Assembly (NCBI GenBank): GCA_017553505.1
Contig: JAFZLD010000019.1
Span: forward strand, 1-64,000
DNA length: 64,000 nt
Direction of reading: 5' to 3'
From: Lachnospiraceae bacterium
Lineage (GTDB): Bacteria; Bacillota; Clostridia; Lachnospirales; Lachnospiraceae
The position numbers were made by a program, and so were the translations under genes. This document shows positions 37,932 to 41,842 of this stretch, piece by piece. Under the pieces are notes generated by a model. It was not told the origin of the DNA. It saw nothing but the letters and a program-made list of their open reading frames with translations, and ran no database searches. Position 1 is the stretch's first letter. Each line of letters opens with the position of its first letter.

Positions 37932-38753
37932 ATGCCAATTCTTGCAGACCAGCACATGCACTCTTCTTTCAGCGCAGATTCCAAAGCTCCCCTTAAGGAT
38001 ATGGTAGAAAGCGCCATTTCCAAAGGACTTACCCACATCAATATCACAGAGCATAATGATTTCGACTACGGCGAGACCGAAATGTTCCCCGAAGGCGCAT
38101 GGGATTTAAATGTAGATTCTTATTTATATGAACTTTTGAATCTCCGCGAGCGTTATAAAGATCAGATCACCATCGGCTTCGGTATCGAGCTCGGAATGGT
38201 GGAATCCGCTTTCCGTAAGAACGCGGTTCTGGCACGCTCACACGAGTTTGATTTTGTAATCGGTTCCATCCACGTAGTCAACGGCATCGACACCTACGAG
38301 CCCCGCTACTACGAAGGCAAGACTGTTAAGGAAGCCGTGAATGAATATTATGAAGCAATGCTTCGAAACATTAAGCAGTTCACGAACTTCGACGTACTCG
38401 GTCACATGGACTACATCGTCCGCACCGTTCCCGGCGGCGAGGCTGTGTATAACTCCATGGATTACAAGAACTACACCGACGAAGTAATCAACATTCTCCT
38501 TGAGAACGAAAAGGGTATCGAGATTAACACTTCCGCTCTTTGGAAGAAAGGTATGTCCCAGCCCAATCCCTGCATCGACATCGTCCGCGCCTACAAGGAA
38601 AAAGGCGGCGAGATAATCACCGTCGGCTCCGACGCCCACAAGCCCGAGAATGTAGCCGGTGCTTTCGATGTAGCCGAGCAGATTCTTCGTGACTGTGGCT
38701 TCAAGTATTACAGCGTATTCAAGGATAGGATTCCTACGTACGTGAAATTGTGA
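37932..38753 (+). CDS. PHP-family phosphatase, histidinol-phosphatase-like
   Basis: Protein of 273 residues with the PHP metal-binding motifs: HMHSSFSAD (HxH) near the N-terminus, ITEHNDF, an IGSIH stretch, and GSDAHKPENV at the C-terminus. Histidinol phosphatase of the HisJ type is the closest family. With no other histidine genes nearby another phosphoester substrate is possible. The ATG at 37932 follows GGAGG by 8 nt. A TATAAT at 37869-37884 and a 6-bp leader hairpin (AAGCGG/CCGCTT) lie upstream. The only plus-strand gene between gapA and the flagellar operon. Confidence 0.88.
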   Translation: MPILADQHMHSSFSADSKAPLKDMVESAISKGLTHINITEHNDFDYGETEMFPEGAWDLNVDSYLYELLNLRERYKDQITIGFGIELGMVESAFRKNAVLARSHEFDFVIGSIHVVNGIDTYEPRYYEGKTVKEAVNEYYEAMLRNIKQFTNFDVLGHMDYIVRTVPGGEAVYNSMDYKNYTDEVINILLENEKGIEINTSALWKKGMSQPNPCIDIVRAYKEKGGEIITVGSDAHKPENVAGAFDVAEQILRDCGFKYYSVFKDRIPTYVKL

Positions 38754-38768
38754 TGGTGGCCTTACCCG

Positions 38769-39599
38769 TCACAGCAGGAACTTATCTATCATTATCTGAA
38801 TGATTCTGGTGTTAAGCGGCTGAATCGAAGTTTCAAAAGTAAATATGCAGTTATGGCCGTGGATGTAACCGTTCGCGGCCATTCTGTTTATTTTATCAAC
38901 ATTCCTTTGCGCGTAGTCGAGGTTGTCCATCATTCCGAAGTGCTCCCAGATGAATTCTTTTTTCGTCCTCACATTCAGGCACAGAAAGTCCGGTCGCCTC
39001 TCTTCTTCGTCTATTATTATCGGGAACTCGTAGTGGTAGGGGACGTTGTTCATTTTAAGAAGGTTCGCTATGTTCTCTTCGGCCTTCGAGCGAACCCGTT
39101 CATCCTTAGCCGTATAGTATTCCGGATAGTCCGGCGCAAAGTATCCCGGGGCATAGTCTTTGGATTGCCAGGCGGTGATGTAGGTATCGTCGGGAGTAAT
39201 GAATGGAATAATGAAGGGTTTTCGGGCTTCTCTTATGTCTTCGAATACTGCCTCAACAGGATTGCTTTTTACGATTTGCAAATAGTTTTCAAGCGATTCT
39301 CTCTCCTTTTTGGCCGCTTGTAAGAATTTGGTCTGATATTCTTTATTTGCTAAGGAACGAACCTTATCGGTATCGGTTTTGGATATGTATCTTCCGCTTC
39401 TGTCACACGTGTTTCTGCGCCAGTAATATTGATAGCCGTCTCTGTGATGAACATCCCTCAGCATTCCCTCCGGCGCAGTAGTCAAATTTGCCTCGATTCT
39501 CTCAATAGTATCGTTCAGCAGTTCTAATCTCTTCTCTGCTTTGATTCGCAGGTCACTTGCCCACTCTTCCTGTGTGTGGTTTCTGTACTTCTTAGCCAT
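38769..39599 (-). CDS. Uncharacterised PD-(D/E)XK nuclease-like protein
   Basis: Soluble protein of 276 residues. The N-terminal half is helical and basic (about 10-115). The C-terminal half has a layout resembling PD-(D/E)XK nucleases: RSKAEENIANLL (acidic residue about 174), a beta strand, RRPDFLCL (Asp 204), then IWEHFGMMD (Glu 219) and a following helix with Lys 236. Proteins with the WEHFGMMD ending are seen as hypothetical proteins in clostridia. Catalysis is not proven, since the usual lysine after the glutamate is His 220 here. AAGGAGAT lies 7 nt before the ATG, and the palindromic array at 39654-40265 ends 54 nt upstream. Confidence 0.75.
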   Translation of the reverse strand: MAKKYRNHTQEEWASDLRIKAEKRLELLNDTIERIEANLTTAPEGMLRDVHHRDGYQYYWRRNTCDRSGRYISKTDTDKVRSLANKEYQTKFLQAAKKERESLENYLQIVKSNPVEAVFEDIREARKPFIIPFITPDDTYITAWQSKDYAPGYFAPDYPEYYTAKDERVRSKAEENIANLLKMNNVPYHYEFPIIIDEEERRPDFLCLNVRTKKEFIWEHFGMMDNLDYAQRNVDKINRMAANGYIHGHNCIFTFETSIQPLNTRIIQIMIDKFLL

Positions 39600-39653
39600 T
39601 ATTCGTATCTCCTTTTTGAGAATTAGTTGATAATACTGCTGATTTGGCGTTCC

Positions 39654-40265
39654 GGCGAAGTGATTCTCCTATTTGCGCCTTTCACTTCGCCACTCTTCTC
39701 GTGTGTTTCGTTGCTCCGGCGAAGTAATTTTGGCTTTTTCTGAATTTGCTTCGCCAATTTTTAGGCATCGATTTCTGTTTTGGCGAAGAAATTTTGCTTT
39801 TAGCGATGTTTGCTTCGCCATTTCATTTCTTCGTATTTAGGTTTCGGCGAAGTAATTCGAGCTTTTTCTATTTTTACTTCGCCATTCCTCACTCTGCGCT
39901 TTTAAATGTGGCGAAGTGATTCTGCTTTTAGCGATATTTACTTCGCCATCTACTATCTTCACTTTGGTATTTCGGCGAAGTAATTCGAGCTTTTTCTATT
40001 TTCACTTCGCCATTCCTCACTCTACGCTTTAAAATGCGGCGAAGTGATTCTGCCTTTTACTGTATTTGCTTCGCCATTTTCGATCATCGATTTTTGTTAT
40101 GGCGAAGTAAATTGCGCTTTTGCGGTTTTCTCTTCGCCAAAACTGCAAATCAGCGTTTCAAGTGGCGAAGCAGATTGACAAATACGAGTAATTACTTCGT
40201 CTATTCCTCCTTCGAGAAGATTTTTATGGCGAAGTAATAGCAGCGATTACGATTTTTTCTTCGCC
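39654..40265. repeat. Ten-unit palindromic hairpin array, 64-bp period
   Basis: Ten units, each exactly 38 nt, begin GGCGAAG and end CTTCGCC (unit 9 ends CTTCGTC). Unit starts: 39654, 39718, 39782, 39846, 39910, 39974, 40038, 40101, 40164 and 40228. Steps are 64 bp except two of 63. Arms extend to 10 bp in units 1 and 4, with coordinated changes (GTGA/TCAC against GTAA/TTAC). The 24-nt interiors and 25-26-nt spacers vary, but units 4 and 6 and their spacers are near-identical, showing duplication of a 128-bp pair. The period is not a multiple of 3 and no gene spans it. It occupies most of the 821-nt gap between the nuclease-like gene and GH43. Confidence 0.95.
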
Positions 40266-40311
40266 AAATAGCAGTATTACGTAAAAAATAAATAGGAATT
40301 TCGCATTGCCC

Positions 40312-40354
40312 CCGATAAACGGGACTGCATATGCTCAGGCGTACCGATAAACGG
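40312..40354. repeat. Two CCGATAAACGG copies 32 bp apart
   Basis: The 11-nt motif occurs at 40312-40322 and 40344-40354, in direct orientation. Each is a small hairpin (CCG...CGG, extended to four bp in the first). The 32-bp step equals half the array period beside it. Function unknown. Confidence 0.55.
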
Positions 40355-40363
40355 CACGAGATT

Positions 40364-40395
40364 TAAAAAGTACCGGATGCACGCATCCGGTACTT
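40364..40395 (-). terminator. Terminator of the GH43 gene
   Basis: A perfect 13-bp stem (AAGTACCGGATGC with GCATCCGGTACTT), a 2-nt loop in the paired form, and a T run on the minus strand. It closes the GH43 unit before the palindromic array. Confidence 0.92.
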
Positions 40396-40420
40396 AAGCA
40401 ATATACACTATGAAAAAGAA

Positions 40421-41842
40421 TTATTCAAGTACAAACGCTGCGAACTGCAAATGTCCCTGGCCCTTGAAAGTGAAGTAAAGGGCGTTTACGCCGTCGGGAA
40501 CGGTGATGTCGGCTTCGGTGTAGTGCCATACATTAGCGTAGCCGATCGGAATGGAGCCAAGAACGGGACCGTCCCAGGATGTCTTAACCTGAAGCTCGCC
40601 GGTGGCGTAGCCTTTGGTCTTGGCCGAAATCTTCTTAATGCCCTTGCAATCGAAGTATTTAAAGCCTGCAGTAGCGGTGTCGCGCATGTTGGCGATGTAG
40701 CCGTAGTTCTCGTCGCCGTCACGGCCTTCCTGAGTAATCTTGGGGAATCTGTCATCCATCCAGCCCGACCATGCAACATAAGTCATATCTATATCGTTAA
40801 AGAGGTTGCATGCGATGTAGGTAGGATATTCGCCCTTGCCCGCTAACGGCTTAAGTCCGCAGCAAGAGGTCATCTCCGCCTGCTTGAAGGTGCCGTCCGC
40901 ATTGGGGGTAAGCTTTTCAAAGCAACCCTGACGGCTGTAATTGGTGCCGTTGGTGTGTCTGTGGTAGAAAATAAACCAGTCATCCTTAATCTGCACCATG
41001 CTGCCGTGGTTATTGGCTGTATAATAAGCGCATTTCTCGGCAGGCTTGTAAGTATCGATATGAAGGTCGCCGCCGCTTACAAGAACACCCTTGTACTCGA
41101 AGCCTTCACGCGGATTCTTGCTCATCATGTAGCAAAGCTCGTGGAACTTAATCGATGAATAAATAAAGTAATAATACTCACCTTTCTTACGAATCGAAGG
41201 AGCCTCGAAAAACTCATGTCCGAAGTAAGAATCGCTCTCGGATGAATAAGCGGAGCTCTTGGCGATAAATACGGGGTCCTCTTCTATCGTAACCATATCG
41301 GGTCCCAGAACCGTACACATGGGGCCGCGTCTGGACTTGTCTCCGTATCCGCAGAATCCTGTATAGAGATAAACCTTATCTCCCTCACGAAGTACGCCGG
41401 GATCGAACTGCGGGTCTTCCTTGCCGCTCTTGCCAAGAAGAGTACCGTCTTTATAGTGAACATGGTCATAAAACTCATACTTACCTGCGGGAGTGTCGCA
41501 CACCGCAACAGAAACCGTGCAGTCGTTACTGATAGTGTAGTAAAGGTAATATCTTCCGTCGGGGCCCACAGCCACGTCGGGAGCATAAAGGTTACCCTGC
41601 AAATCATCATTGCCGGGCTCCTGATCCTTACGATAAATCACGCCCTCGTATCTCCAGGCGCCGAGATCGTCCACAGGTGCCGACCAGCACACATAATCGC
41701 CCATACAATATACATCGCCGTTAAAGAAATCATGCGAACCGTACACATAAACCCTGTCGCCGAACACATAAGGCTCGCCGTCGGGCACATATTCCCACGA
41801 AGGAAGATACGGATTAACCGCCTGCTTAAGTGTATCCAACAT
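40421..41842 (-). CDS. Glycoside hydrolase family 43 enzyme
   Basis: Protein of 473 residues, most likely a beta-xylosidase or alpha-L-arabinofuranosidase acting on xylan-type oligosaccharides. The five-bladed propeller acids are recognisable: Asp in VPDGEPYVFG (general base), Asp in LYAPDVAV (pKa modulator) and Glu in FFEAPSIRK (acid). The C-terminal 120 residues form a separate beta-rich, CBM6-like domain. There is no signal peptide, so it acts inside the cell on imported oligosaccharides. Its ribosome binding site is buried in a long hairpin (41849-41898). Confidence 0.9.
   Translation of the reverse strand: MLDTLKQAVNPYLPSWEYVPDGEPYVFGDRVYVYGSHDFFNGDVYCMGDYVCWSAPVDDLGAWRYEGVIYRKDQEPGNDDLQGNLYAPDVAVGPDGRYYLYYTISNDCTVSVAVCDTPAGKYEFYDHVHYKDGTLLGKSGKEDPQFDPGVLREGDKVYLYTGFCGYGDKSRRGPMCTVLGPDMVTIEEDPVFIAKSSAYSSESDSYFGHEFFEAPSIRKKGEYYYFIYSSIKFHELCYMMSKNPREGFEYKGVLVSGGDLHIDTYKPAEKCAYYTANNHGSMVQIKDDWFIFYHRHTNGTNYSRQGCFEKLTPNADGTFKQAEMTSCCGLKPLAGKGEYPTYIACNLFNDIDMTYVAWSGWMDDRFPKITQEGRDGDENYGYIANMRDTATAGFKYFDCKGIKKISAKTKGYATGELQVKTSWDGPVLGSIPIGYANVWHYTEADITVPDGVNALYFTFKGQGHLQFAAFVLE

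Follow-up and report, generated by a model that had tools for sequence, protein, structure and literature searches.

What are the ten evenly spaced inverted repeats of this Lachnospiraceae contig, and do they belong with a gene nearby? The window, that is the whole stretch of 64,000 nucleotides that was analysed, had been described by a first-pass annotation as holding at this point either a phased protein-binding platform or a chain of structured RNAs. Judged from sequence, the array appears to be a platform to which a selfish or regulatory DNA-cutting enzyme binds. We propose, with moderate confidence, that the adjoining gene encodes a nuclease for which this array is a private site of recognition, in a nuclease-array system that would resemble REP/RAYT while being built on an unrelated nuclease. 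No description of such a system was found in a literature search that covered few subscription papers.

The window array and the gene beside it

The features of the locus are as follows.

38755..40365, no strand: approximate cassette (gene and array), missing as one block in the close relative L180; borders approximate
38769..39599, minus strand: partner gene, 276 aa, with an N-terminal helix/beta-hairpin/helix domain and a C-terminal PD-(D/E)XK-like nuclease domain (predicted)
38772..39122, minus strand: codons 160-276, nuclease domain with invariant E174, D204, E219 and H220 (AF2 and alignment)
39264..39599, minus strand: codons 1-112, N-terminal domain, proposed word reader; helix 17-40, strands 46-52 and 55-61, helix 77-112 (AF2 and module exchanges)
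39600..39615, minus strand: stretch before the start codon with Shine-Dalgarno-like AAAGGAG
39654..40265, no strand: the whole array, ten dyads (38 bp each) of the form GGCGAAG-N24-CTTCGCC repeated every 63-64 bp, about six helical turns
39654..39691, no strand: dyad 1, closest to the gene (genome pattern search)
39718..39755, no strand: dyad 2 (genome pattern search)
39782..39819, no strand: dyad 3 (genome pattern search)
39846..39883, no strand: dyad 4 (genome pattern search)
39910..39947, no strand: dyad 5 (genome pattern search)
39974..40011, no strand: dyad 6 (genome pattern search)
40038..40075, no strand: dyad 7 (genome pattern search)
40101..40138, no strand: dyad 8 (genome pattern search)
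40164..40201, no strand: dyad 9, right arm CTTCGTC, one mismatch
40228..40265, no strand: dyad 10 (genome pattern search)
40370..40393, no strand: hairpin resembling a terminator (GTACCGGATGC..GCATCCGGTAC) next to the cassette border, with a similar one in the empty site

The geometry first described, ten units of 38 nt with spacers of 25-26 nt and a period of 63-64 bp, is present: the pitch is 64 bp in seven of nine steps and 63 bp in two, with spacers of 26 or 25 nt, and the core arms of the dyads are complementary. All units had been said to be bounded by GGCGAAG and CTTCGCC, which holds exactly for nine of the ten, the unit at 40164-40201 ending in CTTCGTC. The 128-bp duplication is supported by TRF (period 128, 80% matches). 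The proposal that the arms beyond the core co-vary is not borne out by the eight window units used, in which the five letters inside the core behave alike within and between units (identity 0.50 against 0.496; Watson-Crick plus GU pairing 0.55 against 0.543). A pattern search of the 3.13-Mb genome gave no second site for the exact GGCGAAG dyad, and Rfam had no match in 38500-41000. The array is not of the CRISPR repeat type, since its 7-bp half-sites alternate in orientation, its interiors drift and its spacers are partly duplicated.

The adjoining gene lies on the minus strand beside the array, which therefore stands upstream of it. Neither Pfam (above cut-off) nor NCBIfam has a match for its 276-aa product, and AF2 predicts a PD-(D/E)XK-like fold for the C-terminal domain. 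The active-site-like residues E174, D204, E219 and H220 are invariant in 85 of 85 aligned proteins, a set made up only of loci with an assigned inverted-repeat word.

The first-pass annotation had named REP/BIME repeats as the closest known type and had noted that no RAYT is present. The comparison is a good functional analogy and a RAYT is indeed not seen; what had been overlooked is the adjacent nuclease gene, which may fill the RAYT role. A dedicated RAYT nuclease gene adjoins palindromic units of alternating orientation in REP/REPIN-BIME systems (PMC2817692), and here too a nuclease gene stands beside alternating palindromic units. The enzymes differ: RAYT (TnpA-REP) is a Y1 HUH nuclease, whereas the fold predicted here is PD-(D/E)XK-like, and 41 members had no Pfam match at the curated cut-off and none to the Y1 HUH model (Transposase_17) at E 0.1. 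Unlike REP units, the dyads have 24-nt interiors and a spacing quantised at helical turns, and the copies are whole arrays at few sites per genome.

Other nucleases offer more distant parallels. The EDxHD homing endonucleases (I-Bth0305I) and Vsr-like nucleases differ in that no intron or intein is seen here, the words lie in an array inside the element and the N-terminal part is another. In contrast to TnsA of Tn7, no consistent transposition partner was noticed beside the gene on informal inspection. The GIY-YIG nuclease Ssn of Neisseria has its own dispersed repeat (NTS); the nuclease described here is of a different superfamily, and the Ssn/NTS repeats are not known to form phased arrays.

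Arrays beside related nucleases and their spacing

The window's genome encodes eight further copies of the nuclease (25-45% identity), and the inverted-repeat words differ between these paralogues: TTATGCAT, TTAGATGC, GTAGG/CCTACAAA, GGGTCAT, CCATCCAT and ACATGCGA were read beside them, with TTATCGCAA for two close copies. Beyond this genome, the nuclease occurs in 18 of 60 genomes, the window's own included (54 matches, of which 49 were examined, leaving out G014:C166, two of G027, G042:C2 and G042:C12). A scan of named genomes gave 464 relatives. The titles of the best 80 name Lachnospiraceae, Treponema, Fibrobacter and a few further groups; many of these records are rumen or gut MAGs, so single taxon assignments may be wrong. 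Alignments comprised 41 of the 49 loci proteins (A2) and the window with 73 of the 80 (A4).

The association of arrays with nuclease loci is not chance. An array score of 6, defined as at least six exact copies of one 7-mer with at least two per orientation on the better of two flanks, was reached by 75 of 129 homologue loci (27 of 49 and 48 of 80; 73 of 126 when three places common to both sets are counted once); control windows reached it in 8 of 559 cases and shuffles in 1 of 765. At score 5 the counts are 33 of 49 and 58 of 80. Five of the eight scoring control windows look like further arrays: L142 adjoins a second nuclease gene, and L074, L111, L136 and L140 look like array copies. Among the 54 loci under the score, some have imperfect arrays by eye and some have none; five of the eight paralogues reach it, and L022, L023 and L024 fall below, resting on mismatched half-sites.

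Several single loci deserve mention. L142:94-1312 (Lachnospiraceae bacterium G41) holds a second array (ACCCGTA) together with a nuclease gene of its own, whose end is about 2.7 kb short of the first nuclease gene, giving tandem cassettes. L111:1767-2018, L136:6469-6741 and L140:925-1115 are array-only copies near nuclease loci, and no second family nuclease was detected in these three loci. At L080 and L023 the gene is flanked on both sides by arrays of one word. The arrays upstream of the gene at L070 and L085, with periods of about 53 and 63-64, have interiors and spacers that look strongly conserved by eye, unlike most. The homologues of L062, L075, L078, L081, L083 and L089 lie less than 1 kb from contig ends, perhaps because arrays break assemblies.

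The spacing of the arrays follows the DNA helix. Half-sites of the same orientation are mostly 53, 62-65, 73-75, 84-86, 93-96 or 103-107 bp apart, and across 52 words the modal period falls near multiples of 10.5 bp, one turn of B-DNA, at a phase close to zero (R 0.85, p 3e-17); when periods between 6 and 20 bp are scanned, the best fit is at 10.4-10.5. With one array per protein cluster below 50% identity (29 clusters) the fit is R 0.82, p about 3e-9. Steps between different spacings within an array also fall near multiples of 10.5 (58 steps, R 0.74), some of them being trivial doublings at a missed unit. Among the exceptions are TATCSCA/TATCGCA arrays, spaced 51 and 70-72 bp and thus 1.5-3.5 bp off whole turns, and one modal value of 46. 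Pairing of the five core-adjacent letters showed no excess within over between units in 83 array-and-orientation sets (Wilcoxon p 0.13). The quantised periods and the lack of excess pairing within units speak for a DNA platform rather than RNA hairpins. Of the two readings first offered, the phased protein-binding platform is strongly supported by this geometry, the binding itself being putative, and the chain of structured RNAs is disfavoured.

Exchange, loss and array-only copies

The division of labour within the protein is suggested by loci that occupy one chromosomal position in related genomes. Their DNA is 92-95% identical in the flanks and the nuclease half, but does not align over the array and the N-terminal part. 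Between L020 and L060 the word changes from TTATGCAT to TTATCCAT and DNA alignment resumes at about codon 83; between L024 and L071 it changes from CCATCCAT to CACACCT and alignment resumes at about codon 102, with protein near-identity starting only near residue 140. The L024 side of that exchange is the weaker word, because this locus is under the array score and its half-sites are mismatched. The nuclease half is 98-99% identical in both pairs and in L073/L074, a pair with different words whose border is less clean (99% in the nuclease half, 65-68% in the N-domain), since its N-terminal parts still align and the downstream region is rearranged. L020 and L061, which have one common word, are nearly identical through the beta hairpin. 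A like split, more diverged, separates the window locus from its nearest orthologue L059 (residues 1-120 about 40% identical, 161-276 72-78%); the latter has an open gene with about two dyads of a related GCGAA word and a lone half-site, at a dyad spacing of 30 bp against 31 in the window.

Among 34 pairs with nuclease halves at least 80% identical, a common word is predicted by N-domain identity (AUC 0.91) and not by nuclease identity (0.49); for 200 pairs at 60% or more the values are 0.87 and 0.67. Here the same word means a full match over at least five overlapping letters, and the pairs are not independent. Over all 3486 pairs, word similarity tracks the two domains to a like degree (rho 0.17 for N-domain identity, 0.19 for C-domain identity). 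The N-domain is probably what reads the array word, since between related species the N-terminal part is exchanged along with the array and the nuclease half is kept.

Gene and array also come and go as a block. The close relative L180 has flanking PHP and GH43 genes at 92-95% identity to those of the window, but 50 bp with a terminator hairpin take the place of gene and array. No GGCGAAG occurs in 190 bases read at this empty site between the PHP and GH43 genes; the words lie inside the element. The borders are approximate, and no clear target-site duplication was found at the empty sites.

Arrays also occur without the gene. A 400-kb sample together with the window, the nuclease loci on the two contigs of the sample being left out, held three array-only copies, two of TATCGCA and one related to CATGCGA, and their words are those of nuclease copies elsewhere in the genome. 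It had been argued that units scattered singly at many sites would point to a common repeat family. GGCGAAG is confined to its array; TATCGCA, the word of two paralogues, is dispersed, with 35 exact dyads genome-wide at nine sites, two with a nuclease and seven without, and every site is an array of at least three dyads (35 of 35 exact dyads). Of 18 genomes of the genus, four encode an L026-like nuclease with a TATCSCA array, and these contain 51, 51, 41 and 32 TATCSCA dyads. Each of the remaining 14, of which some are incomplete, has 0 or 1, and two of these 14 hold L026-like nucleases with other words. The 51 dyads of the window's genome (G000) include the 35 of TATCGCA; in G013 and G002 most arrays are TATCCCA, like the one at the nuclease, and each genome has one TATCGCA array; G017 has both forms. 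As with REP and RAYT, then, sister-clade copies lie elsewhere in the genome with a word type that matches the resident enzyme. The case for action in trans rests on this association in a sister clade, because the window's word has no array-only copies.

Individual sites vary as well. The array-only site L238 is empty in two relatives; some sites carry arrays of different words in different genomes, and at one (L242, L092, L257) gene and array are present in two genomes and the array alone in a third. Outside the half-sites, array similarity at such places is not clearly above that of unlinked arrays. Several TATCGCA arrays among L234-L242 form nearly symmetric palindromes, and their outer spacers contain a motif (GTTATGTAAAC / GTTTACATAAC) that is perhaps a second binding site; a similar motif adjoins L088 and L093.

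From these sequence features we infer a scheme of binding, an oligomer, cleavage, mobilisation and array copying in trans by cut and repair. The N-terminal domain would read a half-site of 7-9 bp. Same-orientation half-sites lie about whole helical turns apart, so protein copies would align along the same side of the double helix, each dyad taking two, and the C-terminal nuclease would cut or nick once assembled on arrays. The array and the N-domain may evolve jointly, forming a single module of specificity. The nuclease of some clades may also reach array-only copies in trans and spread or homogenise them through copying by cut and repair, a role proposed for RAYT on REP/REPIN, here with an unrelated nuclease.

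A broader reading is more tentative than the platform itself, and we offer it as possible: a large family of compact nucleases in which each array records the word of its N-domain, new specificities arise by exchange of N-domain and array, and arrays are spread or homogenised in trans. If this were true, comparing many arrays with their N-domains would yield a recognition code. The observations link an unannotated nuclease family to helically phased private repeat arrays; should binding be confirmed, this would be a further nuclease-repeat partnership beside RAYT/REP and CRISPR, one offering sequence-readable specificity and natural domain swaps, and a testable route to the origin of dispersed palindromic repeats in Clostridia.

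Regulation, defence and other explanations

Regulation and defence are live rivals to the recognition platform proposed here. The array could be an autoregulatory operator, in which a DNA-binding regulator coats it, represses its own gene and controls a regulon of genes near array-only copies, the nuclease fold being kept for some different reason. The position of the arrays speaks for this, as they are mostly 5' of the gene (75 loci: 69 upstream and 9 downstream, 3 of these both), and cooperative binding would fit the helical phasing. Surroundings were read for two array-only copies, both of them intergenic and one between divergent genes, but their neighbours share no evident function. The invariance of the active-site-like residues (85 of 85), the arrays 3' of the gene and the array-only site that is empty in two relatives also weigh against an operator, which we regard as unlikely.

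A defence or addiction module appears slightly more doubtful still. The array would keep the nuclease inactive or mark self, with release on invading DNA or on array loss. The C-terminal domain matches the PADLOC candidates PDC-S68 (41 of 41 members), HEAT_CxxC_PDDEXK (31) and PDC-S69 (28), and a profile search found the nuclease patchily distributed, in 74 of 250 family genomes, the window's own included. Specificity modules are exchanged, as they are in restriction systems. The homology to PDC-S68 is however confined to the nuclease domain: the match joins residues 162-273 of the 276-aa protein to the end of the model only, the models being about 1200-1270 aa long (full length about 1200 aa) with another N-terminus. 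Moreover, L059 has nearly lost its array and its gene is still open.

A chain of structured RNAs, such as an RNA array processed by the nuclease, is highly improbable. A repeat array beside an endoribonuclease toxin gene is the layout of type III toxin-antitoxin systems (ToxIN, CptIN), and the locus resembles it in having an array beside a nuclease gene. It differs in its phasing on DNA, with periods quantised at the B-DNA turn, in showing neither a sign of RNA covariation, with no within-unit pairing excess beside the core, nor an Rfam match, in its nuclease fold (ToxN-like Pfam models had no match at E 0.1 in 41 members) and in arrays that also lie 3' of the gene or alone. A chromosome-organising or partition site, nucleoid or centromere-like, is the least probable of all, for although phased dyad arrays resemble partition or macrodomain sites, the protein is in only 74 of 250 family genomes, gene and array are missing as a block in a near relative, and many different words occur within one genome.

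A relative of the nuclease is also encoded in a 4.2-kb fecal record titled 'Bacteriophage sp.' (MT839528.1), at 30% identity over 95% of the query.
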